Of a DNA stretch of 32,223 bases, positions 110 to 26,578 are shown one piece after another; position 1 is the stretch's first letter; each line of letters begins with the position of its first letter. A model generated the notes under the pieces. The model saw only the letters and a list, made by a program, of their open reading frames with translations, searched no databases and was not told where the DNA came from. The DNA is from a virus. The translations under genes and the position numbers were made by a program. The DNA is taken from the IMG/VR virus record IMGVR_UViG_3300021368_000231, positions 1 to 32,223 of that record, one strand, 5' to 3'.

Positions 110-3100
110 ATGGCATTACGACCTACTAAAGGAATGTTGACAGGATCTAAAGAGACTAAGACTTTGCCCGGAGAGTCTGGTCCTTTTGACCCTAATGCTG
201 GTACTCCTACTTCTTTTGACAATGAGATACCTCCGGGCGATATTCCCGGACCTAGCATTCCCGGAGACGGTGAAATTAGAATCAACGGTCGCCTTGTAAC
301 TACTGATGACGTCTTTGAAATGCTTATGGCTATTATGGCCGGTACTCAAGGCGTTCCTGAAGGCACTTCTGCGGAGGTACTTGCTCGTCTTCAAGGCAGA
401 GGTATAACCACTCAAGAGCAACTAGACGCTGCTATTACACAAATAGTAACTGAGTCTTTTGACAGAGCGCAAGAGATTGTTGACACAATGTATGACAATC
501 CTGAAGAACTTGCGGACATGGAAGATCCGGGTGAGTTGACCAAGTTGTTTATAGAACAAGGCGGTATGTCTTTTGCTGGTGTTGCTCCTCCTGTTGCTAC
601 TACAACCACAGTAACTGGTAGAGAAGTTGCTGTAACTGAAGGTGGCGGCATATCAGGAAATATATTTGATATTCTTGAAACTGGGGGTCGAGTTTTTGGT
701 GAAAATGTTCCTGTAGTATTACGCGATGTAGACGGAAATCCTATAACAGACGAAAACGGCGATCTTGTAACAGTAGAAGAATATCGTCCCGGCATTTTAG
801 ATGTAATGATTCCTCATCTTCCCGGAATATCATTACCTAATTGGATGCCTTCTGCTGGCGTTATTTTTCTTCCTACAATACAAGAAGCTGTAAACAAAGT
901 ATGGACAATAATCGACGAAACAGATATTGGAGAAGCGTGGGAAGAAGGTGACATTGGCGAAGTACTAAACGACATTGGTGAAATTATTGTTCGTTCTGGA
1001 GAAGCTGCTGCTGGCGTACTTGAAGAAAAAGTTAGTGAAATTATTGGCACTATTACAGGAGCTATTTCAGACCCTACCAAAGCAGGTACTGTTCTTGGTG
1101 GCGTTATTGGAACAGCGTTTCCTTCTATACCTCAATGGCTTCCTCCCTTAATTTTAGATCCTCGTGTTTACGGCGCAGTGCGTAATGTACTAACACAAAA
1201 CTTTAATACGCCTGACGAAGATTTTCCTCCTATTACTCAAGACCCAGAACAAGACTCTGCCCTTATGTTTACCAACAGGGGTGACAACTACTTTGTAAGT
1301 AGTGAGGGCGATGAGTACTTCCAGTTAGCCGAAAGCGAAGACATTGACTTTGAGTTTAACGGTCAGTACACCAGAGAGCAGCTAGAAAACACTGGACTAG
1401 AGACAATCAACTCTGGTACGTATCAGTCACTGTTGGATGATCTGTCGTCTCAGGCAGTAGAAGAAGACATCTATCAGTACTCTATAGAAGATCTGGTAGC
1501 GCGTTACGAAGAAGAAGGAGGAATACTTCCCGGTGACTGGAAAGAGATGGATGAGGAGTCGCGGTACAACTACTTCTTAGACGACTACTTTGACATCCCT
1601 ACTCGTGTTGAAGACCCTGATAAAGATGATTTACCGGGTGACGAAGAACCTCCTGTAGAGCCACCTGTAGAGCCACCTACAGACGAGCCTGAGCCACCTG
1701 TAGAACCACCGCCTACAGAGCAACCAGAGCCTGAACCAGAGCCTCCTACAGACGAACCTGAGCCAGAGCCTGAGGTAGACACATCAGTAATTGAAGGTTT
1801 GTTTGCTGACTTCTTGGCACAACTAGACGAAGAGTTTACAGGTCAACAAGAGCAGATCAACGAGATCATTCAGAACTTTGTTGAGACACTGCCTGACTTT
1901 GACGCAATGCCTACAATGGAGGACATTGCTGAGTACTTTGAAATCAACGGTGTCACACTGTCAGAGCAGAACTTTGAGCGTATACGTCAAGAGTTAGCTG
2001 ATGCAGGTTACCTGACACAAGAGCAGTTGACAGAAGCGTTGGCTGGTGTTGCTACGCCAGAGCAAGTACAACAGGCTATTGAAGGTGCTGGCTTTGCTAC
2101 ACCGGAGCAGGTAATACAAGCGTTAGCAGAAGCAGGTTATGCTACTCCAGACGACATTACTAATGCACTGGCTAACTCAGGGTTTGTTACAGAAGATCGT
2201 ATGTTACAAGCCTTGGCAGAGGCTGGATATGCTACGCCTGAACAAGTACGAGAAATAGTTGACAACGCTGTTTCTAACATTGTTATACCTGAGGGCGCAA
2301 CTGCTGAAGAAGTACGACAGCTAATCCAAGAGGCTATTGACGGTATACCTGAGGGTATTTCTCTTGAAGACGTAGGCGACGTAGTTAACGAAGCTATCGC
2401 TAACATAGAGTTCCCTGAAGGACTATCAGAAAGTGACGTACGTGGTATTGTAGACAGCTTTGGGTTTGCTACTTCTGCTGACGTACAGGCTGGCTTTGAA
2501 GATCTTAATCAACGTTTTGATGACGCTATTAACGGTATTGCTACACAGTTTAGCGACCAAGAAGCAGAGTTCCTGGCTAGTATTACAGGACTTGAGGCTT
2601 CTTTAATTCAGTCTCTTGCAGCAGTAGAAGGTGGACTCAGTGCTGAACTAGAGATGCTAGGCACTGACTTAATATCTTTACAAGAAGACGTAGCAGGACG
2701 CTTTGATGAGTTTGAAGCGTTTACTTCAGAGCAGTTTGAACTTGCATCGACTGAACGTCAACAACTACAGCAAGCTATTATTGCGGCTAACGGTGACATT
2801 ACACAGCTAAGTGCTGACATGCAACAGATGTTTGCAGACTTTGGTGGCACTATTTCTGATCTGTTTGCTGGCGTAGGTGTTGACATTGAAGCACTACAAG
2901 CAGGACAGATAACGCAGCAGGAAGCACTAGACCAACTGCGTACGTCTATAGGCCAACAGTTTACTACGGCACAGGAAGAACGTCAGGAGCTACAACAGGC
3001 AATCATAGCTGTCGGTGGTGACGTAACTCAGCTTAGTGACGACATGATGCTACGGTTCCAACAACAGGACCAAAGCATAGAGGAACTGTTTGCTGGTACT

Positions 3101-3721
3101 AACGTAAACATTGAAGCATTACGTCAAGGTCAAATAACACAACAAGAAGCATTTGACGCTTACCAGCAGTACACAACAGAACAGTTTGGTCAGGCACAGC
3201 AGGACCGTTTAGCACTAGCTCAGGAAATAATTAGTGTTGGTGGTCAGGTAGAAGCTCTTAGCTTTGACAGTCAACAACGGTTTGCTGAACTAGGTTTGTC
3301 TCTTTCTGATCTGCAGGAAGAATTTAACGTAAACCTAGTTGGTTTACAGCAGGGACAGATCAGTCAAGCTGAAGCGTTTGGTCAGTTTAGAGATAGTGTT
3401 ACTACGCGGCTGGGCTTGGCAGAAGAAGAACGTGAAGAAATACTAACACGTCAAGCTGAGTTTGAAGCAATGTACGGTGAAAATCAGCAGGCACTGCAGG
3501 AACAAATTACTACTGGTAACTTACTAACTATGTTAGCTGGCGGCGGTATGTTCGGTGGAGGTGCTGCGCCTGCTAGAGCGCCTTATAAAGAGTTTACAAA
3601 AGGTATTACGTACCGCCCTAGAGAAGCAGTACCGCTTGCTATTAAAACGCCAGCTTTAGATTACAACGAAGAAGCACAAAAATTATTAATGCGGACACGC
3701 AGACGAGGAATGTTGGTATGA
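110..3721 (+). CDS. Large repeat-rich coiled-coil virion protein, probable tail fibre or appendage
   Basis: This 1203-residue protein matches no family I can name. The N-terminal 400 residues are Gly/Pro-rich and then mixed alpha/beta. Residues about 507-555 form a Pro/Glu/Asp hinge of PPVEPP and PEPEPE type. Residues about 627-720 hold five or six short units related to AGYATPEQVxQAL. Residues about 864-1120 hold three longer units of about 75 residues, each with ERQxLQQAIIA, a GGDVTQLS-like segment, a SIEELFAG-like segment and a GQITQQEAF motif; a fourth is truncated. The C-terminus has a GGGMFGGG stretch and a basic end. High Gln/Glu content and heptad-like spacing suggest long coiled coils. 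Its position next to the tail adaptor and nozzle supports a tail or fibre role by inference. Its stop overlaps the next start as ATGA. Confidence 0.6.
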   Translation: MALRPTKGMLTGSKETKTLPGESGPFDPNAGTPTSFDNEIPPGDIPGPSIPGDGEIRINGRLVTTDDVFEMLMAIMAGTQGVPEGTSAEVLARLQGRGITTQEQLDAAITQIVTESFDRAQEIVDTMYDNPEELADMEDPGELTKLFIEQGGMSFAGVAPPVATTTTVTGREVAVTEGGGISGNIFDILETGGRVFGENVPVVLRDVDGNPITDENGDLVTVEEYRPGILDVMIPHLPGISLPNWMPSAGVIFLPTIQEAVNKVWTIIDETDIGEAWEEGDIGEVLNDIGEIIVRSGEAAAGVLEEKVSEIIGTITGAISDPTKAGTVLGGVIGTAFPSIPQWLPPLILDPRVYGAVRNVLTQNFNTPDEDFPPITQDPEQDSALMFTNRGDNYFVSSEGDEYFQLAESEDIDFEFNGQYTREQLENTGLETINSGTYQSLLDDLSSQAVEEDIYQYSIEDLVARYEEEGGILPGDWKEMDEESRYNYFLDDYFDIPTRVEDPDKDDLPGDEEPPVEPPVEPPTDEPEPPVEPPPTEQPEPEPEPPTDEPEPEPEVDTSVIEGLFADFLAQLDEEFTGQQEQINEIIQNFVETLPDFDAMPTMEDIAEYFEINGVTLSEQNFERIRQELADAGYLTQEQLTEALAGVATPEQVQQAIEGAGFATPEQVIQALAEAGYATPDDITNALANSGFVTEDRMLQALAEAGYATPEQVREIVDNAVSNIVIPEGATAEEVRQLIQEAIDGIPEGISLEDVGDVVNEAIANIEFPEGLSESDVRGIVDSFGFATSADVQAGFEDLNQRFDDAINGIATQFSDQEAEFLASITGLEASLIQSLAAVEGGLSAELEMLGTDLISLQEDVAGRFDEFEAFTSEQFELASTERQQLQQAIIAANGDITQLSADMQQMFADFGGTISDLFAGVGVDIEALQAGQITQQEALDQLRTSIGQQFTTAQEERQELQQAIIAVGGDVTQLSDDMMLRFQQQDQSIEELFAGTNVNIEALRQGQITQQEAFDAYQQYTTEQFGQAQQDRLALAQEIISVGGQVEALSFDSQQRFAELGLSLSDLQEEFNVNLVGLQQGQISQAEAFGQFRDSVTTRLGLAEEEREEILTRQAEFEAMYGENQQALQEQITTGNLLTMLAGGGMFGGGAAPARAPYKEFTKGITYRPREAVPLAIKTPALDYNEEAQKLLMRTRRRGMLV

Positions 3722-4365
3722 CGTACCTTAACCTAATGAATAGCGTACTACGTCGATTACGAGAAGAAGAAACGACATCGGTTACTAGTACTACCTACGT
3801 TAAGATGGTAGGTGATTTTATTAATGATGCAAAGAAAATGGTAGAAGAAGCCTCTGATTGGTCTGCCTTGCGAGATACTATTGTTATTAGTACTACTGCA
3901 TCAGACAACAGCTACTCACTTACTGGTGGTAGTGACAACGTAAAAGTAATGTCAGTACTTAACGATACTGAAAATTGTTTTATGGGTTATCAGACTAAGG
4001 ACTGGTTTAATGAGCAGCTGTATTTGGTTGATGCTGCAGAAGGCGCACCACGGTACTACACGTACAACGGTCTAGACTCTAGCGGTGATACAGAAGTTCT
4101 TGTAGGACCAACTCCTGATGCTGTGTACAGCTTAAGGTTTGATGTCGTAAAAAGACAAGCAGATCTTTCAGCTAATGATGATTCGTTGCTTGTTCCTGCA
4201 ATGCCTGTTGTTCACCTTGCTGTAGCGTTGCTTGCACGAGAGCGCGGTGAAACTGGCGGTACTTCTGTTGCTGAGTACTTCCAGATTGCTGATAAGTTTT
4301 TGTCTGACGCTATTGCTATAGACGCAGCAAAGCACCCTGAAGAGATGGTATTTAGGACTATTTGA
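3718..4365 (+). CDS. Head-tail adaptor (tail tubular protein A / gp4-like)
   Basis: The 215-residue product begins with MTYLNLMNSVLRRLREEE and has a helical N-terminal third (GDFINDAKKMVEEASDWSALR) followed by a beta-rich half. This is the usual appearance of the ring protein that sits under the portal in short-tailed phages (T7 gp11 or P22 gp4 position). The length suits the family. It overlaps the preceding gene by four bases (ATGA) and is followed two bases later by the tail nozzle gene; adaptor followed by nozzle is the standard order in this phage type. The assignment rests on position and N-terminal resemblance to adaptor proteins of marine podoviruses. No catalytic motif is expected. 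Confidence 0.65.
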   Translation: MTYLNLMNSVLRRLREEETTSVTSTTYVKMVGDFINDAKKMVEEASDWSALRDTIVISTTASDNSYSLTGGSDNVKVMSVLNDTENCFMGYQTKDWFNEQLYLVDAAEGAPRYYTYNGLDSSGDTEVLVGPTPDAVYSLRFDVVKRQADLSANDDSLLVPAMPVVHLAVALLARERGETGGTSVAEYFQIADKFLSDAIAIDAAKHPEEMVFRTI

Positions 4366-4366
4366 T

Positions 4367-5890
4367 ATGGCTCAACAACTGCAAAGTATCAATCTTGTAG
4401 CTCCAGCGTTTAAAGGTGTTAACACCGAAGACTCGCCGTTGGCTCAAGGCCCGTCGTTTGCAGAGATTGCAGACAACGCTGTGATTGACAAACGTGGTCG
4501 TATTGCTGCACGTAAGGGCCACACTGTTGTAACAACAAACAAGACTGTACTGGGCACTGACTCGTTACGGGCTATCAAAGAGTACAAGGACAACGCAGGA
4601 AACACCAAGATATTTTCTGTTGGCAACAACAAGATTATGAGTGGCACAACTACGTTGGCAGACGAGACTCCCGGCAGTTACACAATCAGTGCTAACAATT
4701 GGAAGATTGTAAACTTTAATGACCACTTGTTTTTCTTTCAACGTGGTTATGAGCCTTTAGTTTATTCTAATCATGCTGGTGTTGTAGAGAAAATGTCAAC
4801 ACACGCCCACGCTACTGGTGTTGCTAGTACTATGTACGGCCATGAGGTGTTAGCGGCGTATGGACGTTTATGGACTGCGGACTTTAGTACTAACAAGTCT
4901 ACTATTTATTGGTCAGACCTGTTAGACGGAGTTGCTTGGTCAGGTGGATCTAGTGGCAACATTGACGTGTCTAAGGTGTGGCCTGACGGTTACGACGAGA
5001 TTGTAGCTTTAGCAGCACACAACGGCTTGTTGATTATCTTTGGTAAGCACAGCATTATTGTGTACGACGGTGCTACTTCTCCTGCTTCTATGACTTTGTC
5101 AGATACCGTAGCGGGCATTGGTTGCGTCAACAGGGACACTGTGCAGTACACGGGTACAGACGTGCTGTTCTTGTCGCACACAGGACTTAAGAGCTTTGGT
5201 AGGACAATACAAGAAAAGTCAATGCCTATCAGCAGCTTGTCCGGCAACATTACTAAGGACATCATTGCTGCACTACAGAATGAGACAGAGTTTTTTAGAA
5301 CTGTATACAGTCCAGAAGAAGGTTTCTACCTGCTAACCTTTACTGGTCAGGATGTTACTTATTGTTTTGACGTGCGTAGTACTTTAGAGAATGGATCATA
5401 CCGTGTTACTCGTTGGCCTTCTACTAAGTTTACATCATTTACACGATTAGAGAACGGTACGTTGTACATTGGTACCAGCAACGGTATCAGCACGTACACA
5501 GGTTACAGTGACAACGGCAGTGGTTACAGATTTAAATACTACAGCCCAAGCTTAACATTTGGCGATAGCTCTAGAGTTAAGATTTTAAAGAAGTTAAAGC
5601 CTACTCTTGTTGGTGCAAACAACGCAACAGTGTTTCTTAAGTGGGCTTACAACTTTGAAACAACATATGCTACTGCAGAGTTTACAGTAGGTAACCAGAT
5701 TACTGGTTTTTATGGTGAGAGTGAGTACACCACCGTAGAGTTTACAGCAGGTCAGTTGACCAATGCAAGAGTACTTAATACAACAGGATATGGAACAAGT
5801 GTGCAAGTAGGGCTAGAGTCAGAAATAAACGGCTTTGCTTTGTCACTACAAGAAATTAACGTAATGGCTTTAATAGGAAAGCTGCTTTAA
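4367..5890 (+). CDS. Tail nozzle protein (tail tubular protein B-like)
   Basis: This 507-residue, beta-rich protein has an N-terminus of the form GVNTEDSPL followed by ADNAVIDKRGRIAARKG. That layout, a plea to few residues then many short beta repeats with aromatic and glycine turns such as WPDGYDEIVAL and FLSHTGLKSFG, resembles the propeller-like nozzle proteins of podoviruses (T7 gp12 and P22 gp10 role). The nozzle is the distal part of the short tail tube and binds fibres. Immediate placement after the adaptor gene supports the call. There are no transmembrane segments. Translation probably starts at the ATG two bases after the upstream stop, which implies coupling. Confidence 0.65.
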   Translation: MAQQLQSINLVAPAFKGVNTEDSPLAQGPSFAEIADNAVIDKRGRIAARKGHTVVTTNKTVLGTDSLRAIKEYKDNAGNTKIFSVGNNKIMSGTTTLADETPGSYTISANNWKIVNFNDHLFFFQRGYEPLVYSNHAGVVEKMSTHAHATGVASTMYGHEVLAAYGRLWTADFSTNKSTIYWSDLLDGVAWSGGSSGNIDVSKVWPDGYDEIVALAAHNGLLIIFGKHSIIVYDGATSPASMTLSDTVAGIGCVNRDTVQYTGTDVLFLSHTGLKSFGRTIQEKSMPISSLSGNITKDIIAALQNETEFFRTVYSPEEGFYLLTFTGQDVTYCFDVRSTLENGSYRVTRWPSTKFTSFTRLENGTLYIGTSNGISTYTGYSDNGSGYRFKYYSPSLTFGDSSRVKILKKLKPTLVGANNATVFLKWAYNFETTYATAEFTVGNQITGFYGESEYTTVEFTAGQLTNARVLNTTGYGTSVQVGLESEINGFALSLQEINVMALIGKLL

Positions 5891-5903
5891 TTAGGAGAAA
5901 ACG

Positions 5904-6797
5904 ATGGCTGAAGAAAACTCAGACAAAGGGTTTATGGATATGTTGGGGGATCTTGGGTCGTACCTGATGCAACCAGACGTTCTCCTTCCGGGTGTTGTTG
6001 GCGGTTTGCTAACAGGAGAGGCTTATGGTCGTCTTAGCGATATAGGACGAGAGGCAAGAACAGGTGCTGAGGCTCTTGCTGCACAACAAATGGAGCAGAC
6101 ACAGTTTAGACCATTCACTGTGACTACTGCTACTGGTGCTGGCATGGGTACTCAGGTAACGCCTGAAGGTGGTTTTGAAACTACTATGGGGCTGTCTCCA
6201 CAAGAAGTTGCTTTGCAGAATCAACTACTAGGAGGCGCTGGTGGTTTTTTTGGTCAAGCAGTACAGCCTAGAGAAGCACGTGAGCAGGCTATCTTTGAGC
6301 GTATGCGTAGAGCACAACGTCCTGAAGAAGAGCGACAACGTCTTGCACTTGAAGAGCGTTTAGCAGGGCAAGGTAGACTTGGTGTTAGTTCTGCTGCTTA
6401 TGGAGGCGCTACTCCTGAGATGTTAGCTATGGCTACAGCGCAAGAAGAAGCACGTAACAGAGCTATGCTAGGGGCTATGCAGCAGGCTCAAGCAGAACAA
6501 ATGCAACAAGCAGCATTAGGACAACAGTTCCTTGGTGCAGGTTACTTACCTCAGCAACAGCTTATGGCCGCTACTCAGCCTTCACAGCAATTAGCAGCGT
6601 TGCAGAATCAACTTCAAATACAAGGTGCTGGGTTGTTTGGTGAAGCAACTATGTCGGGTCTTGAAGCTCAGTTGGTTGCAGAACAGGCACGAGCTAACTT
6701 ACTAGGACAAACAGGTACTGGTCTTTTACAAGGCGCGTTAACTCCTAGTACAACGTCAACTGAAGCAGCTATAATTAAGAAAATTCTTGGAGGCTAA
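5904..6797 (+). CDS. Probable internal virion protein (gp14-like position)
   Basis: This 297-residue protein of no family I can name has a hydrophobic N-terminal region (YLMQPDVLLPGVVGGLL) and an Ala/Gln-rich helical remainder (QQAQAEQMQQAALGQQFLGAG). It follows the nozzle gene and precedes two larger helical proteins. This reproduces the T7 order tail tube, gp14, gp15, gp16, where gp14-16 are ejected into the host to form a channel. The role is inferred from order and composition. The start is well supported by an AGGAG at 5893-5897, six bases before the ATG. Confidence 0.55.
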   Translation: MAEENSDKGFMDMLGDLGSYLMQPDVLLPGVVGGLLTGEAYGRLSDIGREARTGAEALAAQQMEQTQFRPFTVTTATGAGMGTQVTPEGGFETTMGLSPQEVALQNQLLGGAGGFFGQAVQPREAREQAIFERMRRAQRPEEERQRLALEERLAGQGRLGVSSAAYGGATPEMLAMATAQEEARNRAMLGAMQQAQAEQMQQAALGQQFLGAGYLPQQQLMAATQPSQQLAALQNQLQIQGAGLFGEATMSGLEAQLVAEQARANLLGQTGTGLLQGALTPSTTSTEAAIIKKILGG

Positions 6798-6799
6798 AC

Positions 6800-8071
6800 A
6801 TGGCTAAGTTTTCACAAGCGTTCCTGCAAGGACTCTTACAGCCTACTTATCAAGAAGGTTTGTTTACTTCTGCACAACAAGCAGCACAACTTCCGGATAA
6901 GCTAAAGCAACAGCAGCAAATGCAAGCTTACAGGCAAATGGATCCTTTGCAACGTCTAGATTACGGAATTGCTGTTGCAAAAACACCTGCAGAAATACAA
7001 GAGGCTCAAGCCGCTAAAGATGCTTTCATGAAAGAAAAGGCACAGAGATCTATTAACATGCTAGAAGCCGCTAGAGCTTCTTCAGATGATCCAACCCTTC
7101 AAAGAAACTATGAAAAATCAATGGCCGCTATAGCAGGTCAGTACAATATAGACCCCAAAGGTATTGTTGGCCGTACAGATGCAGAAGAACTTAGACAACT
7201 TCAAACAAATGCAGTACAGGACGCTGCTAATGAAAGGCAGTTAAGAGATCAAAGCAGGGCTATAGCGACTGCTTACAGGGGACTGTTATCTAGAAAAGAC
7301 CAAGCAGGTGAAGGTGTCATTGAACAGTTTAAAAAGAATGTACAAGATACAAGCGCTGAACTTTATGCAGTTATAGAAGCTATAGATCAAACAGCTATAG
7401 AATCTGCTAACAGAGAAATGAGGCATCAAGAACTTTTAGAAAGCAGAGCTGAAAAAAAATCTTATCTTTCGACAACAAAACCTGTTGGTGAGTTAGAAAC
7501 TCAAATAGATAGTTCTAAGTTAGAGCCTGCTATTAAGCAAGTATTGAAAGATAGAATAGCACGTCTTAAGGCACAGTACCCTGATTTCGCCAAAAAAGAA
7601 ACATGGACACCTGCAGGTAGAAAGCAGCACGATGCAGAATATCAAGCAATTAATAAAGCTTTCTATGCTGAAGTCACAGATGCTGAAGCATTAAAAGCGC
7701 GAGAAAGAATACGAATGGCTAAACTTAGGGATAGTTTAGCAAAGATAGCTACTAAAACTCCTCCTCAGAATGTATGGGAGCAATACGTTCCTGCAGCAGA
7801 AGAAGAGTTAGGAAGTGGATTTTTAGGGTTTGGTGGTCCTAGTGAAGAACAACTTAATATAAGAGCAATAGAGTTAGCACGGTTGGCTATGCAGCGAGAT
7901 GCATTAAATGCAGTCAACGCCGCTCGTGTTGCTAATGATTTAGAGGCTTTGTCTTTAGAGGAAGTATTAGGTACTGATCTTAGTGTTGTTACGCCTACTG
8001 AGGTTCCAGAGCCTGTTGAAGAAAGAGAAACGACAGACTTAACTAAAGCCGACAGTATAGTAGGAGTTTAG
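6800..8071 (+). CDS. Probable internal virion protein (gp15-like position)
   Basis: The 423-residue product is almost wholly helical in appearance, rich in Ala, Gln, Glu and Lys, with long stretches of coiled-coil type such as NEAxxRQLRDQSRAIA. It has no transmembrane segment and no motif I recognise. It starts two bases after the upstream stop with a GGAGG at 6789-6793. Its place as the middle of three ejection-type genes suggests a component of the DNA-ejection apparatus, but this is inference from synteny only. The gene is noticeably more A/T-rich in codon choice than the tail genes to its left. Confidence 0.5.
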   Translation: MAKFSQAFLQGLLQPTYQEGLFTSAQQAAQLPDKLKQQQQMQAYRQMDPLQRLDYGIAVAKTPAEIQEAQAAKDAFMKEKAQRSINMLEAARASSDDPTLQRNYEKSMAAIAGQYNIDPKGIVGRTDAEELRQLQTNAVQDAANERQLRDQSRAIATAYRGLLSRKDQAGEGVIEQFKKNVQDTSAELYAVIEAIDQTAIESANREMRHQELLESRAEKKSYLSTTKPVGELETQIDSSKLEPAIKQVLKDRIARLKAQYPDFAKKETWTPAGRKQHDAEYQAINKAFYAEVTDAEALKARERIRMAKLRDSLAKIATKTPPQNVWEQYVPAAEEELGSGFLGFGGPSEEQLNIRAIELARLAMQRDALNAVNAARVANDLEALSLEEVLGTDLSVVTPTEVPEPVEERETTDLTKADSIVGV

Positions 8072-8072
8072 T

Positions 8073-11018
8073 ATGGTCGATAGAGTTCAAGCGTACGCAA
8101 GCTGGCTCATCGAAAACGAAGACAAAAAAGGAACTGCAGAGTTTGAAGAGGTGGCTAATGCTTATCGCTACCTTAGAGCAGAGCCAGAGCGTATTCGTTT
8201 AGAGAAAGAGTTAGAACAAGCAGAGCAAGAAAGAGCAACGGCTGACTACAGGTTAGAAGCCGCTGAAGACACTATGCTTGAAAACTTAGCAGAAGGTATA
8301 CAACAAACCTCTGCCGCTGGTGTAGGTGCTGCTGCTGACTTAGCTACACTTATTGCTTCTCCTATTACTTATGCTTATGAGAAAGCTACAGGCCAAGACG
8401 TACCTACTGGGCGTGAAGCACTGGCTATGATAGATCCCCGTCTAGATCCTAATCAACGCTTTGTAGAAGAAGATGTAGGTGCTTTTGCTACTCGTCTTGC
8501 AGGTGAGATGTCTGTCTTAGGTGGTGGTTTTGCTCAGGTAGCTAGAGACCCTGCAAAAATATCTTCTGCTATTAAAGACATTGCTGGTTTAGGTATGACC
8601 AAAACTCCTGTAACCGCAACAGCTTTGAAAGAAGGACCAGAGTTTGCAGAAAGACTAACCAGAGATTTAGCAGACCCTGATCGCAATTTTAATCTAGAAA
8701 CTATTGAAGGTGTCAAGCAATTTGCTGATGATGCTGCTATTCGTTTTGACGTAGAACAAGCACGTCCTCAGTTTGATAACTTCGAGCAATGGCAGAAAGT
8801 AGAGCTACCTCGTTTTGAGGCACAGCAAGTTAAATTAGGAGAGCAGTGGGAAAAAGCAGCAGACCGTGTTAAAAAGGCAGAGAAAAGACAACAAAAAGCA
8901 ATAGCGTCAGGAGACGAGGATAAGGTAGTCAAGGCAACTACTGCTTTAAATAAGGCAGAGCAAGAACTAGAAGCGTTAACAGCGCAAGCAGTAAAGGCTC
9001 CTGTACCTCCGTCTATTGCAAAAGGATCAGCAGAGCGTCGTGCTTTTATTAAACAGGAACTAGAACAAGCTGGTGTTGTAGACGACATGGTTAAGCAAGT
9101 TGTTTTACCTCAACGCTATCGAAAGCCTAAGCCGTTTGAAGAGCTAATAGAATACGACAAGATGGCAATGCGCGGGATGTACGATACTAATCCTAGTGCT
9201 TCCGTTAGTTTTTTTGGTAAAGCTTTACGCCCTACTTCTGCTATTGTAACTAAGTTTGCGGGTCCACGTGTAGGTGCTATCTTTGCATCGTCTTTTGAAA
9301 CAGCAGGACGTAATCAAGAACTTTTATACAATAAGTACTTTGACGATAAAGTTAAAGACAGTCTTGCTGAGTTAATTGATTGGGGCAATAATCCAATGAA
9401 TAAAGCTATGTTTCTTGATTTACACCACCAGCCTGAGAATTTAAAAACACTTCTTAGTAATGCATCAGACGAACTCAGCAGACCAGCTTATAATTTGTTT
9501 AAGCAATTAGTGGCAGATTCTAAAGCTCATCAATCTAGTGTAAGAGGTCTGTACAAAGAAGACGTACTTAAAGATGAAGTTTACTGGGCATCAGGTATTA
9601 AACGTTCTGCGTTAGACGACGAAGAAACTTTAGGCACTGCTATTGAAACAGGGACAATTATAAATCCTGGCTCTAAAGAACGTAGCAGAAAAATAGCCCA
9701 AGAGATGGAGCTAGATGAGCTTGACGAGTATTCAAGTCCTATACTTGAACAAATTAATCGTATGTCGCACGAGCAGATGCTTATTGAACTGTCTAAAAAC
9801 TTTAGAATGCGTCCTAGTATACCGTTAAACGGTAACAGTAATGATTTTTTTAGAGAGATGCAACGTACTATCCAAGCTCAAACACAGTCGCCGACTGTAG
9901 CAAAGCGTGTAGCAGAAATGGCTAACACAACATACTTAGGTGCTAAAACATCTACAGGTAGTTTTGTTACTGCATGGATGAAGCAGGCTTATGGTGGTAC
10001 GCTAGGTCAGTTTGATTCTGCTTTTCTTAACTTGCATGATTCTACTATATCAATGGTAAAAAGCGGTGTCAAACCTACGTTAAGAGCTATCCTTAATAGA
10101 GAAGGAATGAGGATTGAAGACTTCGGCATAGGTGGTACTAATAAAAATATAGGAGAGTTTCAAGCAGGATTTGACGAAGGATTAGAAAAAGCTTTTTATG
10201 AAAAGGCTGCAGATAAGTATCAAGACATTGGCTTTAAGTGGTCTGCCTTTAGACTATCGGATAGGAAAGGCAAAGGTATTACTCTTCGTTCTGCATTCAA
10301 TGCTATGAGAGACTCTGCGACTAATGCACAAAAATTTAAAGATGATTTTTCTGTTTATTTTTCTGCGAGAGAACGTGCTTTAATAAGACCTCATTTAGTA
10401 AAAGGCACTGATGTAAATGACATGCCTGAACAAGTTAAACAGATAGTACTAAGAGGTATGTTTACACGGCTAGGTGAACAACAACTTATTTCTGCTGCAG
10501 GTCGTCCTTTGTATTACTTAAACAAGCCTTATGCAAATCTTGTTCGTCCTTTGTATGCACTGTCAGGGTTTGCCATTATGCAGGGCGAGCTACTAAAGCA
10601 AGGTATTATTGACAACATAGCCAAAGGAAACTACAAAGCTGCTGGTAATTTTTCAGCACGTTACATGGCGTACGCTGGTTTAGGTTATGGGATCATTGAT
10701 GAGTTAAGAGGAATACCACAATGGATTCTAGGTAATGAGGACAAAGAACCTACTATCGAAGACATTGTTATAAAAGCAGCCAGCCAGCCTGTACAGGTAG
10801 CTACTTATGGGCGGTTAGGTGATCAGTATTCCACTAAAAAGTTTTTAGATTCTCCTGTTGATCATACCATTGAATCTTTAGCACCTCCTAGTGGACTTGT
10901 TGGTAATTTATCTAAAGATGTTGCAGACGTTGTAACAGGAAAAGATACAAAGTATGAGACGCTAAAAAGTTTTCCGGGCGGTGAAGAGCTACGTGCTGTA
11001 TTGATGGAGGATAGGTAA
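8073..11018 (+). CDS. Large internal virion protein (gp16-like, ejection protein)
   Basis: This 981-residue protein opens with VQAYASWLIENEDKKGTAEF followed by EEVANAYRYLR, a short N-terminal segment I associate with large ejection proteins of T7-like phages. A hydrophobic stretch lies near residues 85-105 (AAGVGAAADLATLIASPITY) and a coiled coil near residues 250-305. The C-terminal quarter has two amphipathic or membrane-type helices (LYALSGFAIMQGELLKQGII and RYMAYAGLGYGIIDELRG). T7 gp16 is larger (about 1318 residues) and carries a lytic transglycosylase domain; I see no such E-containing domain here, so wall penetration may rest on another protein. It overlaps the following gene by one base (TAATG). 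Confidence 0.6.
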   Translation: MVDRVQAYASWLIENEDKKGTAEFEEVANAYRYLRAEPERIRLEKELEQAEQERATADYRLEAAEDTMLENLAEGIQQTSAAGVGAAADLATLIASPITYAYEKATGQDVPTGREALAMIDPRLDPNQRFVEEDVGAFATRLAGEMSVLGGGFAQVARDPAKISSAIKDIAGLGMTKTPVTATALKEGPEFAERLTRDLADPDRNFNLETIEGVKQFADDAAIRFDVEQARPQFDNFEQWQKVELPRFEAQQVKLGEQWEKAADRVKKAEKRQQKAIASGDEDKVVKATTALNKAEQELEALTAQAVKAPVPPSIAKGSAERRAFIKQELEQAGVVDDMVKQVVLPQRYRKPKPFEELIEYDKMAMRGMYDTNPSASVSFFGKALRPTSAIVTKFAGPRVGAIFASSFETAGRNQELLYNKYFDDKVKDSLAELIDWGNNPMNKAMFLDLHHQPENLKTLLSNASDELSRPAYNLFKQLVADSKAHQSSVRGLYKEDVLKDEVYWASGIKRSALDDEETLGTAIETGTIINPGSKERSRKIAQEMELDELDEYSSPILEQINRMSHEQMLIELSKNFRMRPSIPLNGNSNDFFREMQRTIQAQTQSPTVAKRVAEMANTTYLGAKTSTGSFVTAWMKQAYGGTLGQFDSAFLNLHDSTISMVKSGVKPTLRAILNREGMRIEDFGIGGTNKNIGEFQAGFDEGLEKAFYEKAADKYQDIGFKWSAFRLSDRKGKGITLRSAFNAMRDSATNAQKFKDDFSVYFSARERALIRPHLVKGTDVNDMPEQVKQIVLRGMFTRLGEQQLISAAGRPLYYLNKPYANLVRPLYALSGFAIMQGELLKQGIIDNIAKGNYKAAGNFSARYMAYAGLGYGIIDELRGIPQWILGNEDKEPTIEDIVIKAASQPVQVATYGRLGDQYSTKKFLDSPVDHTIESLAPPSGLVGNLSKDVADVVTGKDTKYETLKSFPGGEELRAVLMEDR

Positions 11019-11818
11019 TGGACTTTGAAACAGCACGTATTAAACGTACACAGTTTCCTCAAGAAGAAGTAGTAGTAACAGCTTCTCGTACTAAAGGACA
11101 AGCAGAACAAGCTTTGTCAGATGAGTTTGTTATTGACATGGTTAATCGTTTACCAACAGAAGGGCAACCCGGAACTCCTTTAGGTTTTATGATGGGTCTT
11201 GGTCTTAGTAATCAAGACACTGACTTTCGTATGTTTAAAAAACCTGCTCGTGCAAGAGGCCGTACTGTTTATGGTGCTTACCTTCCAGAAGGAGAAGAGT
11301 TTGCTGCTGATAGAGAACAGATAGGAGGCATGCTTACTTCAAATAAAAGTAGCACGGTAACACCGTATAAGGGAGAGAAAGATATACTTTACTATACGCC
11401 TCAGCATGTTGTTGAGCAGAGAGGCGTGGCAGATAGAATAGGAGAAAGCGATACGTTTGCTCATGAGCTTTTTCACAAAGGATCTGTCATTGCATTGCCT
11501 GTTATAGAAGACATGCTCCAAGAAAAAGGCGGTCCTCTTAAGTTAATGTCTTTAAACAAAGATAAGCTAAGAAAATTTAAGCAGTCGTTTGAAGACGACA
11601 GAAGCCATAGTAAATATTTAGATGCTATGGACAAATATTATCTTGTTGGTGGCGATGTTTCTAAGCTGTCCAAAGAAGAACAGCAGACAATAAACGATGT
11701 TAAAGTTATCAGCACGACTGTAGAAAACTATCTAAGGTCTGATAAGAAAGATAAATACGACATTAGACTACCTACTAAAGCAGCTAAACCTAAAAAGAAA
11801 GGGTTGTTTGAGAAATAA
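11018..11818 (+). CDS. Putative zinc metalloprotease with HELFH motif, virion-associated
   Basis: The product has 266 residues. Residues 149-153 read HELFH in the context DTFAHELFHKG, a textbook HExxH zinc-binding motif in which two His bind zinc and the Glu activates water. The third ligand is not obvious; candidates lie in the helix after residue 190. The N-terminus (EEVVVTASR) is extended and the C-terminus is Lys-rich. The gene is the last of the late operon and overlaps the large ejection protein gene by one base, so it is probably co-expressed with virion proteins. It could be a packaged protease or a maturation enzyme. The motif is clear; substrate and location are unknown. Confidence 0.6.
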   Translation: MDFETARIKRTQFPQEEVVVTASRTKGQAEQALSDEFVIDMVNRLPTEGQPGTPLGFMMGLGLSNQDTDFRMFKKPARARGRTVYGAYLPEGEEFAADREQIGGMLTSNKSSTVTPYKGEKDILYYTPQHVVEQRGVADRIGESDTFAHELFHKGSVIALPVIEDMLQEKGGPLKLMSLNKDKLRKFKQSFEDDRSHSKYLDAMDKYYLVGGDVSKLSKEEQQTINDVKVISTTVENYLRSDKKDKYDIRLPTKAAKPKKKGLFEK

Positions 11819-20205: not shown

Positions 20206-20316
20206 TTAGTATACCACACTACGCTTTCTTTTGCCAATGGATTTGTCGGCACTATTACCTCTTGATTTACTGCGTGGTTTGTGCGTCTTAACATATCGGC
20301 GTGTATTCCTTGCCAT
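20206..20316 (-). CDS. Very basic 36-residue protein
   Basis: The short reading frame begins MARNTRRYVKTHKPRSKSR and ends KRKRSVVY; 13 of 36 residues are Lys or Arg. GGAG lies seven bases before the ATG (in GAGGAGATAAGGT), and the gene overlaps the end of the sigma-like gene by 29 bases. The composition suggests a nucleic-acid-binding peptide; no family is recognised. The 3' end overlaps the replication promoter. It is too short for most gene finders, but start site and packing make it credible. Confidence 0.55.
   Translation of the reverse strand: MARNTRRYVKTHKPRSKSRGNSADKSIGKRKRSVVY
20208..20237 (-). promoter_or_regulatory. Promoter of the replication operon
   Basis: On the minus strand TTGGCA (20237-20232) and TATACT (20213-20208) are separated by 18 bases, with GTGTGG before the -10 as at 16407. 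It overlaps the end of a 36-residue gene, so transcripts from further upstream may also read through. Confidence 0.65.
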
Positions 20317-20494
20317 ACCTTATCTCCTCCACATCGTTAATATGATCCAAGAAAGCACGTAGCTTACCTGAACGCTTGAGCTTTTGCAGCGCTTGGTACT
20401 CAATGTTACGCACCATCTGACGACTGATACCTAACTCGTCAGCAATCTCTTGGTGTGTCATGTAGTACGTAAGATAACTACCCTTCTTCGCCAC
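20288..20494 (-). CDS. Small helix-turn-helix protein resembling sigma factor region 4
   Basis: The 68-residue protein contains MTHQEIADELGISRQMVRN followed by IEYQALQKLKRSGKL. This is the layout of the sigma-70 region 4.2 DNA-binding helix-turn-helix, in which E-I-A-x-x-L-G-I-S-R-x-x-V-x-x-I-E-x-x-A-L-x-K-L is the recurring pattern. Region 4 recognises the -35 element and contacts the RNA polymerase beta flap. No regions 2 or 3 are present. I place the start at the GTG at 20494, seven bases after AGGAG; an internal ATG at 20461 has no ribosome site. It could redirect host RNA polymerase to phage promoters or block it. That role is inference; the fold call is fairly firm. Confidence 0.75.
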   Translation of the reverse strand: MAKKGSYLTYYMTHQEIADELGISRQMVRNIEYQALQKLKRSGKLRAFLDHINDVEEIRYGKEYTPIC

Positions 20495-20624
20495 TATCAC
20501 GCTCCTCTTTGTACTTGGAGATATCGTCCTCGTGATACTCCTCTGCATAGTCCCAGATACAACGATCACCTTCCCAATAGTCTTGGTAGTCGTCGTGCCA
20601 TACTTCCCACGTTTCCTTACCCAT
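20478..20624 (-). CDS. Small acidic, aromatic-rich protein (48 aa)
   Basis: The product begins MGKETWEVWHDDYQDYWEGD and ends ERDSGEEG. It is rich in Trp, Tyr, Asp and Glu. A TAGGAG lies eight bases before the ATG, and the 3' end overlaps the GTG start of the sigma-like gene by 17 bases. No family is recognised. Very acidic aromatic miniproteins are often inhibitors or DNA mimics in phages, but nothing here proves that. Confidence 0.65.
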   Translation of the reverse strand: MGKETWEVWHDDYQDYWEGDRCIWDYAEEYHEDDISKYKEERDSGEEG

Positions 20625-23452: not shown

Positions 23453-24076
23453 TTAGTGCTTGCTAGGTACAGCGGACCATACCTTATCGAACGTCTCTCG
23501 ATTGGTGCTCAATTGCTGGATAAGGTTAAAGACTTCATCCGGCGTGTGAGAGTGCTTTTTACAGTTGGCGATGTAACCCGCTAATAGTTCCAGCGGATTT
23601 TGTGAATCCTTATCGAGTAACTCTCCCGACTCCGATTCAGTCTCAGTCGACTCCGATTCAGTCTCAGTCGATGGTGGCGTTAGCGCTTCCGCTAATCCTT
23701 TCACCGACTTGATACCGTTCTCGTCGATCAGACGATGAAGCAGTGCTTTACCTTCATCCGGTGTCGATACTCCCCATGCTTCACAAAGCTTTTTATCAAG
23801 GCTAAACGCTACCTTAAACAGTCGAGTAACCCGACTTGCCGCATTGGCCGCGCCTTTACCCTCGCCGCCTTTCTCAACTGATCGGTCAGTGTAGTACTCG
23901 ATCAGACTAGCGCGGATAGGTTTTAGGTCAGCCTTGGTTACGTCTTTCGTATCGATCAATTTAACGATCTTATCCAATTCAGACTGGCGCGCCTTATCGA
24001 TAGCTTTATCAGCTGAAGCGATGGCGGTTCGTACGGCTACGGCTATAGCGTTAGCCTTATGTTCAATTTGTGTCAT
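23453..24076 (-). CDS. Unknown early-type protein with Thr-Glu-Ser repeats
   Basis: The 207-residue protein has an Ala/Lys-rich helical N-terminus (AIAVAVRTAIASADKAIDKA), a central helical part and, near residues 135-150, two copies of TETESES, which form a flexible acidic linker. The C-terminal part is again helical. No family is recognised. It has its own probable promoter and terminator and is the gene nearest the divergent control region on the minus strand, a typical place for an early takeover or regulatory gene. That is inference. Confidence 0.7.
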   Translation of the reverse strand: MTQIEHKANAIAVAVRTAIASADKAIDKARQSELDKIVKLIDTKDVTKADLKPIRASLIEYYTDRSVEKGGEGKGAANAASRVTRLFKVAFSLDKKLCEAWGVSTPDEGKALLHRLIDENGIKSVKGLAEALTPPSTETESESTETESESGELLDKDSQNPLELLAGYIANCKKHSHTPDEVFNLIQQLSTNRETFDKVWSAVPSKH

Positions 24077-24118: not shown

Positions 24119-24147
24119 ATTCTCGCATATAAGCACAATGTGGTCAA
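24119..24147 (-). promoter_or_regulatory. Probable promoter of the 207-residue gene
   Basis: On the minus strand TTGACC (24147-24142) and GAGAAT (24124-24119) are 17 bases apart and TGC precedes the -10. The -10 is a weak match. The palindrome at 24153-24166 ends five bases upstream of the -35. Confidence 0.5.
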
Positions 24148-24166: not shown

Positions 24167-24199
24167 CTTTATATAGGTCCATCACAGACTCACACTCTT

Positions 24200-24271
24200 T
24201 ACTGTATGGATGCACAGTACTGTATAGATGTACAGCACTGGTTATCTGTACAGTACTGTATAAATGTACAG
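24200..24271. repeat. Four tandem 18-bp repeats of LexA-box type
   Basis: The array is four contiguous 18-base units without spacers: 24200-24217, 24218-24235, 24236-24253 and 24254-24271. Unit two is TACTGTATAGATGTACAG. All four keep CTG-N10-CAG and three keep CTGT-N8-ACAG. The known LexA site of gammaproteobacteria is TACTG-(TA)5-CAGTA, with the same spacing. Alternatively the units are iterons for a replication initiator or sites for a phage regulator. Confidence 0.85.
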
Positions 24272-24403
24272 GGGGAGGGGATTTTGCAGCACATCGCGGG
24301 CAGGGTACTGCTCAGACACAAAAAAGAGCAAAATTGGAAGACGTTATTGCTAGTACTTTTAGTTATATATCAATAATTTACTATAATCCTGGGGCATAAG
24401 ACT

Positions 24404-24440
24404 AATCTGCACTGTAAAATCACAGAATCTGCACTGTAAA
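24404..24440. repeat. Two 15-bp direct repeats upstream of the packaging promoter
   Basis: AATCTGCACTGTAAA occurs at 24404-24418 and again at 24426-24440, a period of 22 bases (about two helical turns). The second copy ends 24 bases before the -35. Each contains CACTGTA, which resembles the core of the 18-base repeats. They look like activator or repressor sites. Confidence 0.75.
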
Positions 24441-24464
24441 TACAATGTTTTTTCCCTACAGGGG

Positions 24465-24493
24465 TTGACAAATGTTAAAAAGTATGCTATAAT
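24465..24493 (+). promoter_or_regulatory. Perfect consensus promoter of the packaging operon
   Basis: TTGACA (24465-24470) and TATAAT (24488-24493) are 17 bases apart, with TGC before the -10 (extended). Spacer and flanks are almost the same as those at 29562-29590. It would use host sigma-70 RNA polymerase. Confidence 0.85.
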
Positions 24494-24988: not shown

Positions 24989-25328
24989 GCATTTTGATTC
25001 TTCAGAGTTCAACTGTCAAGTTACTGGCACCAACAACATGGAACAAGAGTTCCTAGAAAAGTTAGACGAGTTAAGAGGGGCATGCGGGTTTCCTTTCACG
25101 ATCACCAGTGGGTATCGACACCCGACTGAGCATCCGATAGAGGCTAAGAAAGATGTACCCGGAACACATGCCCAAGGGATCGCGGCGGATATAAAAATAA
25201 CAAGCGCCGTGTTTCGCCTTAAAATTGTAGAGGAAGCTCTTCGTCTAGGCTTCACAGGCATTGGCATTGCTGATGACTTTGTACATGTGGATACACGCGG
25301 GACAACACCCGTCATGTGGACATATTAG
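24978..25328 (+). CDS. Endolysin, M15 family peptidase
   Basis: The enzyme should cleave peptide bonds in peptidoglycan at lysis. The 116-residue protein is a bare catalytic domain of the peptidase M15 (D-Ala-D-Ala carboxypeptidase/endopeptidase) type. SGYRHPTEH (residues 44-52) is the family's start of the active-site region; GTHAQGIAADI supplies H64 and D71; FVHVD supplies H103 and D105. H64, D71 and H103 fit the zinc ligands. No signal peptide is present, so a holin is needed for export; one may lie at the left edge of the window. The gene overlaps both neighbours. Confidence 0.85.
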   Translation: MNLKHFDSSEFNCQVTGTNNMEQEFLEKLDELRGACGFPFTITSGYRHPTEHPIEAKKDVPGTHAQGIAADIKITSAVFRLKIVEEALRLGFTGIGIADDFVHVDTRGTTPVMWTY

Positions 25329-26578
25329 TGGATCTTAATATAGAACTACTGCCGTGGCAACAACAAGTCTGGGCAGACGACACAAGATTTAAAATAGTAG
25401 CTGCTGGGCGACGTACAGGTAAGTCTAGGTTAGCAGCATGGTTATTAATTGTTAACGCACTACAGGCGGACAGAGGACATGTATTTTACGTCGCACCTAC
25501 TCAGGGACAAGCCAGAGACATCATGTGGACCACCCTTCTCGATCTTGGGCATGAAGTTATCAGTGGTAGTCATGTTAATAATCTTCAAATTAAGCTTGTT
25601 AATGGAGCCACTATCAGTCTCAAGGGAGCCGATAGACCAGAAACCATGCGAGGTGTCAGCCTCAAGTTCTTAGTAATGGACGAGTACGCTGACATGAAGC
25701 CTGAGGTATTTGAACAAATCCTGAGACCTGCTTTGGCTGACCAGAAGGGTTCTGCAATGTTCATAGGGACACCTATGGGACGCAACCATTTTTATGAGTT
25801 GTACAAATATGCGGAGTTAGACGATGATCCGACGTACAAAGCTTGGCACTTTACTTCTTATGACAATCCATTATTGGACCCGGACGAAATTGATATTGCT
25901 AAAAGGTCTATGTCTTCTTATGCGTTTCGCCAAGAGTTTATGGCGTCGTTTGAAGCACGTGGGTCAGAAATGTTTAGAGAGGACTGGGTCTCTTTTAGCG
26001 AAGACAGACCTGAAATAGGAGATTACTACATTGCCGTTGACTTGGCGGGTTTTGAAGAAGTCAACAAGAAGAAGACTAAGAATTCCAAGCTTGACGACAC
26101 AGCGATCGCCGTGGTTAAGGTCAATGAGCATGGTTGGTATGTTGACAATATTATATACGGTAGATGGTCACTTGACGAGACAGCACTTAAAATATTTCAG
26201 GCCGTTAGAGATTACCGTCCCGTATCGGTTGGAATCGAAAGAGGTATTGCTAAACAAGCAGTAATGTCTCCTTTGATGGACATGCAGAAACGCTATGGCA
26301 TGTTCTTTAGAGTAGAAGAGTTGACCCACGGCAATAAGAAGAAAACAGATCGTATCATGTGGGCATTGCAAGGACGATTTGAAAACGGATACATAACGCT
26401 AAACAAGGGAGAGTGGAACAGCAGGTTTCTTGACCAGTTGTTTCAGTTTCCAGACCCATTAACCCACGATGACTTGGTTGACGCTTTAGCATACATTGAC
26501 CAGTTAGCAAATGTGGCTTACGACTACGATTACGAAATCGAAGACCACGAAATCTTAGACGTAGTAGCAGGATACTAA
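25316..26578 (+). CDS. terL: Terminase large subunit
   Basis: The motor protein packages DNA into the procapsid and cuts it. The ATPase domain has Walker A AGRRTGKS (30-37), Walker B FLVMDEYA (118-125) and a GTPMG coupling motif (151-155). The nuclease domain has YYIAVDLAG (D242), GIERG (E308) and HDDLVDAL (D385, D386, D389). At 420 residues the length suits a podovirus or siphovirus-type enzyme. Both plausible starts are GTG: at 25316, used here, and at 25328, which overlaps the preceding stop as TAGTG; neither has a strong ribosome site, so the first four residues are uncertain. Confidence 0.93.
   Translation: MDILVDLNIELLPWQQQVWADDTRFKIVAAGRRTGKSRLAAWLLIVNALQADRGHVFYVAPTQGQARDIMWTTLLDLGHEVISGSHVNNLQIKLVNGATISLKGADRPETMRGVSLKFLVMDEYADMKPEVFEQILRPALADQKGSAMFIGTPMGRNHFYELYKYAELDDDPTYKAWHFTSYDNPLLDPDEIDIAKRSMSSYAFRQEFMASFEARGSEMFREDWVSFSEDRPEIGDYYIAVDLAGFEEVNKKKTKNSKLDDTAIAVVKVNEHGWYVDNIIYGRWSLDETALKIFQAVRDYRPVSVGIERGIAKQAVMSPLMDMQKRYGMFFRVEELTHGNKKKTDRIMWALQGRFENGYITLNKGEWNSRFLDQLFQFPDPLTHDDLVDALAYIDQLANVAYDYDYEIEDHEILDVVAGY

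Follow-up and report, generated by a model that had tools for sequence, protein, structure and literature searches.

The DNA analysed here, referred to below as the window, is a single IMG/VR record of 32,223 bp (IMGVR_UViG_3300021368_000231). The element in question is an array of four 18-bp LexA-like units at 24200-24271, which sits in the gap between two divergent gene modules, upstream of a putative gene of the terminase small subunit (terS). The array is the cargo of a conserved frame, formed by a left box, a G-run and a right box; in related phages the same slot holds predicted sites of other host regulators. The features of the array and its frame are as follows.

24177..24197 (+): left box of the frame, GTCCATCACAGACTCACACTC, at the left border of the slot; consensus of the family approximately GTCCWACCTAGACTCTCACAC
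24200..24217 (+): LexA-like unit 1, TACTGTATGGATGCACAG, 20.7 bits including the next two bases
24218..24235 (+): LexA-like unit 2, TACTGTATAGATGTACAG, 21.1 bits, the top site of the window
24236..24253 (+): LexA-like unit 3, CACTGGTTATCTGTACAG, 16.4 bits, a CTGG variant (CTGG-N8-ACAG)
24254..24271 (+): LexA-like unit 4, TACTGTATAAATGTACAG, 18.7 bits, its final G being the first base of the G-run
24271..24280 (+): G-run GGGGGAGGGG, the right cargo border, occurring as GGGGGAGGGG in most relatives
24281..24303 (+): spacer between the G-run and the right box, variable in sequence but kept in length
24304..24329 (+): right frame box GGTACTGCTCAGACACAAAAAAGAGC, found in 166/168 relatives at 15 or more of 21 positions

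The preliminary description of this DNA had reported four contiguous 18-bp repeats with CTG-N10-CAG in every unit and CTGT-N8-ACAG in three, had read them as having the sequence and spacing of the gammaproteobacterial LexA operator, and had proposed that they be scored with LexA matrices. Its account of the repeats was borne out: Tandem Repeats Finder delimits 24200-24271 with a period of 18, 4.0 copies and a score of 74, the units abut at exact 18-bp steps, and the two patterns are present in 4/4 and 3/4 units, respectively. Outside the array, CTGT-N8-ACAG occurs at one further place in the window (13055), and the reversed control pattern has zero occurrences in the 32,223 bp. Scoring was performed with a 20-bp matrix built from 15 Escherichia coli SOS boxes. 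This E. coli matrix places the units at ranks 1-4 of all positions, and their scores of 16.4-21.1 bits fall within the range of the training sites (13.3-25.3 bits). The maxima of 60 Markov-shuffled windows averaged 12.4, with one at 16.9 and none at 18.7 or above; the four-unit array exceeds chance expectation. The 18-mers share bases between ACAG and CTGT, and units 1 and 2 extend into the neighbouring unit as near-complete 20-bp boxes. The matrix scores support the reading of the units as gammaproteobacterial-type LexA boxes.

Relatives were gathered from IMG/VR by the TerL and TerS proteins and by a flank pattern, giving 168 distinct terS-upstream regions. The left box is present in 150 of the 166 framed relatives at 16 or more of 21 positions, and exchanges of the cargo end at or near it. 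The right box takes the form of approximately GTNCYACCYAGACACAAAAAAGAG in relatives; in many of them its GTCCTACCTAGACAC part repeats the left box, and in many members GTCCTACCTAGAC is common to both boxes. The distance from the start of the G-run to the right box is 35 bp in most relatives, the cargo varies in length from 47 to 313 bp, and the gap between the last site and the G-run is also variable. Inside the G-run lies the word GGGNAGGG, which we take to be the KOPS word of FtsK, directed toward terS. Of the 168 relatives, 122 have this KOPS-like word within the 700 bp preceding terS, whereas the other 1.23 Mb contain 18 copies, both strands counted. The remaining 46/168 carry other G-runs there, or none that was recognised. 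KOPS is a candidate meaning of the G-run, which might load FtsK, mark a cut site or serve another purpose. The frame is thus a conserved feature beside terS in a large uncultured podovirus-like lineage. Where relatives keep the LexA array, they keep the CTGT and ACAG ends as well. The loss of these ends with retention of the period, which the preliminary description had named as evidence against LexA, was not seen; elsewhere the whole array is replaced by the sites of another regulator.

The content of the slot was classified in 150 framed loci, with 750 equal-length segments of the same loci as background; these counts include related sequences and do not represent independent events, and sites of sigma-54, Fur and DnaA were recognised by their standard consensus sequences. 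Two or more sigma-54 sites were found in 47 cargos, DnaA boxes in 39, Fur boxes in 10 (plus two Fur-like cargos) and LexA boxes in 7, while ATAAAGATATCTTTAT-like sites, TTGCATTYTGCG repeats and GTTCTNTTTTGG were found in 13, 10 and 4, respectively. Three or more DnaA sites occur in 34/150 cargos vs 0/750 background segments, and the corresponding values are 16/150 vs 0/750 for sigma-54, 10/150 vs 2/750 for Fur and 2/150 vs 0/750 for LexA. In a motif-free count, the top 9-mer of the cargos was TTATCCACA, a DnaA box, with 190 copies as against 5 in 1.10 Mb; next came overlapping DnaA words and pieces of sigma-54 sites, which align as YTGGCAYG-N4-TTGCA and show conserved positions beyond those of the search pattern. 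Enrichment over background was 1600-fold for DnaA, hundreds-fold for sigma-54 and about 100-fold for LexA. Some cargos are composite, such as GTTCTNTTTTGG with DnaA boxes in L101 and LexA with DnaA boxes in L405. Judged by the letters of the sites, the cargo groups together near-consensus predicted sites for a single host DNA-binding regulator, or sometimes for two.

LexA sites of at least 14 bits have a density of 0.99/kb in the cargo. In the adjoining 250 bp on the left of the slot the density is 0.72/kb, and over the remaining 1.16 Mb it is 0.008/kb. The left-side position was observed in 17 loci (L139, L134, L101, L128, L123, L152, L159 and L196 among them), where boxes of 15.6-24.0 bits precede the left box by 18-190 bp and the cargo itself consists of the sites of another regulator or is unclassed; these left-side boxes could be true operators of the leftward genes. 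For the ATAAAGATATCTTTAT class, SahR was considered as the binder and rejected, as the gammaproteobacterial SahR motif, the only one compared, is described as approximately ATC-N10-GAT and does not fit. TTGCATTYTGCG recalls the PutA operator GTTGCA. The literature on the letters of the cargo motifs and on PutA/GTTGCA yielded no regulator.

The cargo can differ completely between phages whose neighbouring sequence is nearly the same. The window, with its LexA array, and L085, with two sigma-54 sites, are 98.4% identical over a 633-bp stretch that runs from the right box through terS. Differing cargos also stand beside near-identical right flanks in L095/L096 (99.3%), L057/L326 (99.2%) and L101/L191 (98.0%), and L262 (sigma-54) shares with L268 (DnaA) 91% of 1167 bp on the left and 96.7% on the right. 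L134 and L139 are alike on both flanks and even within the edges of the cargo, the core of which consists of TTGCATTYTGCG repeats in one and of a ATAAAGATATC-type palindrome in the other. A tree built from terS and the sequence that follows it requires at least 43 changes of cargo type, as against a minimum of 6 and a mean of 64 after shuffling; recombination may inflate this number. These comparisons show that the cargo is exchanged, and suggest recombination between the conserved boxes.

This exchange bears on several explanations of the array. Repeats bound by TerS were considered and rejected, because phages with nearly identical terS regions hold unrelated arrays. A replication origin, in which the array would be an iteron or a DnaA-type origin, had been the alternative offered in the preliminary description; DnaA boxes are indeed among the two commonest cargos (39/150), but close relatives replace them fully with LexA, Fur or sigma-54 sites, and the phage encodes its own primase-helicase and polymerase. 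The sites of an initiator would be expected to be conserved among close relatives, and L085, the neighbour mentioned above, has sigma-54 sites instead. We know of no origin that swaps its sites completely within one lineage. The iteron origin is rejected on the grounds of these unrelated arrays in close relatives, and we regard an origin of any kind as highly improbable. It might also be supposed that the true ligand of the arrays is a fast-evolving phage protein and that their resemblance to host consensus sequences is a coincidence. The phage does encode a small helix-turn-helix protein (20288-20569) that could be such a binder; however, four unrelated host motifs are matched closely, with the DnaA and LexA enrichments given above, and TerS regions that are 98-99% identical lie beside differing arrays. 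Of all the explanations considered, this one receives the least credence.

LexA, Fur, DnaA and sigma-54 are all widespread regulators with strict DNA consensus sites. The simplest role open to all four of them would be to be captured. We tentatively favour, at somewhat less than an even chance, the possibility that the cargo is a cassette for the capture of host regulators, probably acting as a decoy. Each replicated copy of the phage would add 2-12 strong sites away from core promoters, and the array would titrate the host regulator as a DNA decoy, the more strongly as phage copies rise. Capture of LexA would derepress the SOS genes, capture of DnaA would starve the initiation of host replication, capture of Fur would turn on iron uptake and capture of sigma-54 would bring its regulon down, and different phages may target different regulators through recombination of the cargo between the conserved boxes. 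Titration of regulators by decoy sites is known in E. coli (PMC7826281), and the multiple near-consensus sites outside predicted core promoters are what a regulator decoy would be predicted to show. Binding, occupancy, titration and benefit to the phage are the steps that we infer here; the analysis itself shows the identity of the sites by sequence, their position and their exchange. In its broader form, the proposal is that of a widespread aquatic phage lineage with an exchangeable cassette in a fixed frame at the packaging end, strains of which would titrate LexA, DnaA, Fur, sigma-54 or other regulators; we consider the chances of this to be about even.

Several observations weigh against a decoy. 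Cargos outside all the named classes account for 18/150, and three motif classes (27 cargos) had no regulator matched. Two to four sites per genome are modest in comparison with an abundant regulator such as Fur. That the sites lie away from promoters was judged from consensus promoter predictions, and some of the sigma-54 sites face leftward and could be real promoters. Finally, a pure decoy need not have a fixed frame beside terS, a G-run or a fixed spacing, which hint instead at packaging, replication or a genome end.

The position of the array relative to transcription is defined by two predicted promoters.

24119..24147 (-): predicted leftward (early) promoter, with the -35 element TTGACC at 24147-24142, N17 and the -10 element GAGAAT at 24124-24119
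24465..24493 (+): predicted rightward terS promoter, TTGACA-N17-TATAAT, top score 15.2, about 194 bp from the array

The leftward promoter was found by consensus scoring, has counterparts at similar positions in relatives of the subgroup, and has its -35 element about 53 bp from the array, which lies upstream of it; the near-perfect terS promoter keeps a fixed distance to the right box within the subgroup. The array overlaps neither of these predicted core promoters, and at such distances a repressor bound to it would cover neither. The preliminary description had suggested that LexA operators here place the early and packaging genes under control of the SOS state. This is not supported by the location of the array, and it is weakened further by phages with almost identical flanks that hold DnaA, Fur or sigma-54 sites in the slot. 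Two other possible regulator sites were observed nearby: a direct repeat of AATCTGCACTGTAAA, with two copies at 24409-24450 just upstream of the terS promoter, is kept in the close subgroup and might be the site of a phage activator, and a palindromic TTAATCNNGATTAA occurs in the early leader left of the frame in L088, L165 and L193.

In a wider sense, transcriptional co-option would make the cargo an upstream control region that senses the state of the host (DNA damage, iron, nitrogen, replication) and tunes early or late transcription, in the manner of CtrA sites in alphaproteobacterial phages. This would agree with the intergenic position between divergent modules, with the density of LexA boxes left of the left box in the 17 loci mentioned, where they are nearer to the leftward genes, and with the two leftward-pointing sigma-54 sites of many cargos. 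Precedents are provided by the dense CtrA sites of phage intergenic regions and by LexA-controlled phages, as described in PMC9437464. The cargo of the window is nevertheless clear of both predicted core promoters, the direction of the sites alternates in long sigma-54 arrays, and most distant-clade loci have no good rightward promoter near the array. Furthermore, it is unlikely that one promoter would use repressors (LexA, Fur), an initiator (DnaA) and a sigma factor for the same task. We consider co-option to be a less probable explanation than capture, though one to be taken seriously.

It is also conceivable that the left box, G-run and right box form the terminase site, either a pac site or a terminal repeat. 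In that case the host proteins on the cargo might be a barrier, an architectural factor comparable to IHF at the cos site of lambda, a protector of the end, or a timer keeping the site closed until genomes outnumber the regulator. The fixed frame lies directly upstream of terS, and two near-complete contigs begin at the left box, G002 with 2141 identical bp repeated at its end and G001 with an end repeat of 146 bp; several shorter contigs begin within about 15 bp of it. Recombination breakpoints coincide with the same place, so these starts are only suggestive of a genome end and may be assembly breaks at a hypervariable, recombining spot. The distance from the last site to the G-run, moreover, is not constant. 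A packaging or genome-end element, including this role of the bound proteins, appears to us rather unlikely.

The association of regulator sites with terS was also found by a search seeded with LexA boxes alone. The exact pattern of the array had no match in IMG/VR, being too strict, while a query of two LexA boxes spaced at 18 bp, containing nothing from the phage, gave at least 118 new loci. A TerS homologue of 33-94% identity is present in 37 of these among the matches listed, and in 33 of the 36 listed loci with enough upstream DNA the 600 bp before terS contain LexA sites. In the 26 distant loci among the matches listed (TerS below 50% identity), which were selected for LexA, there are 56 LexA sites upstream of terS vs 7 elsewhere; Fur boxes played no part in the selection, and there are 10 of them upstream vs 0 elsewhere in the same loci. 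Most of these 26 have a G-run close to the array. Among the matches listed, GGGTAAACCC palindromes (AGGGTAAACCCTA) also surround the LexA sites upstream of distant terS genes (21 vs 2 elsewhere; L372, L402, L443, L466, L421 and others). The LexA and Fur sites beside distant terS genes indicate that the arrangement is old and broad. In three contigs, L432 (about 10281-10426), L410 (about 116-261) and L465 (about 9959-10088), LexA box pairs are interleaved with two near-perfect parS sites (TGTTCCACGTGAAACA), parS being the site of chromosomal ParB; no relatives of the proteins of the window were recognised on them.

The genes around the frame are those of a phage with separate structural and replication modules. 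Structural genes run rightward from 24611 past the right end of the window and also occupy much of 110-11818, while replication genes run leftward from 24076 and encode a ribonucleotide reductase, a metallophosphoesterase, a 5'-3' exonuclease, an endonuclease I-like protein, a family A polymerase and a primase-helicase. The genes closest to the frame are listed below.

23453..24076 (-): first leftward gene, 207 aa, opening the replication module, with relatives in L081, L082 and L083
24611..24988 (+): putative TerS, named by position, a small protein preceding an M15 peptidase/endolysin and the large terminase
25316..26578 (+): terminase large subunit (Pfam Terminase_6N, 1e-18; PHROG terminase large subunit)

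The product of the 207-aa gene matches no known family, and a perfect 21-bp tandem repeat of 2.1 copies (23627-23671) lies within this gene. The putative TerS matched no database family but has hundreds of relatives in IMG/VR. As named phage records contain no relative of it and TerL relatives that are all below 60% identity, the lineage seems to be uncultured. A scan of GTDB found three contigs of metagenome-assembled genomes, labelled Bacteroidota or Verrucomicrobiota; these were judged to be probable binning errors, and no host was assigned on that account. No tRNA was found in the window, and no integrase or repressor was recognised among the scanned phage proteins. The helix-turn-helix protein at 20288-20569 (-) resembles sigma-70 region 4 (Pfam 6.6e-10) and is a candidate phage transcription regulator.

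The element may be compared with several known systems. The lambda cosB and SPP1 pac sites are composite cis elements beside terS, in which boxes flank a variable part and host IHF can take part. Their boxes bind terminase, whereas here the variable part bears predicted sites of unrelated host regulators. Alphaproteobacterial phages have intergenic regions rich in CtrA sites, which were related to deferment of lysis (PMC9437464); in vB_BsubS-Delta, a large intergenic region lies between the structural module, at its terminase end, and a divergent module, as it does here, and in both cases the density of host-regulator sites is skewed to one intergenic region. That text describes one regulator, sites mainly in promoter regions and a demonstrated transcriptional effect and, in the part consulted, neither a conserved frame nor an exchange of regulators. 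The LexA-controlled phages CTXphi, GIL01 and SPC32H, cited in the same source, likewise carry host LexA boxes, but in the promoters of antirepressor, co-repressor or lytic genes and with SOS induction, whereas the tandem array of the window lies off the predicted promoters. Phages of the phi29 type with Spo0A sites resemble the present case as virulent phages with sites of a host protein, and differ in that the sites are associated with promoters, concern one regulator and serve spore entrapment, with no exchangeable cassette described (PMC9437464). Chromosomal DnaA-box clusters that titrate DnaA (PMC12371093) have clustered strong sites and the same mode of action as that proposed here, but are cellular and have no exchangeable cargo. 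Synthetic transcription-factor decoys (PMC7826281) also act by titration, but are not a phage element with exchangeable cargo. No other conserved frame with exchangeable multi-regulator cargo was found in the open-access literature.

Phages are known to disable host regulators by means of proteins and to make use of them at phage promoters. If the decoy reading is true, these phages would reprogram the host without a protein, by means of a DNA element whose contents are interchangeable among at least four unrelated proteins and which evolves by the swapping of 50-300 bp cassettes. The arrays would offer natural multi-site decoys. If the frame is instead a packaging site, the levels of host regulators would be linked to packaging. 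The cargo of such a decoy would make it testable which host circuits uncultured phages need to disarm and, as it names regulators of the host, may provide a handle on the hosts themselves.
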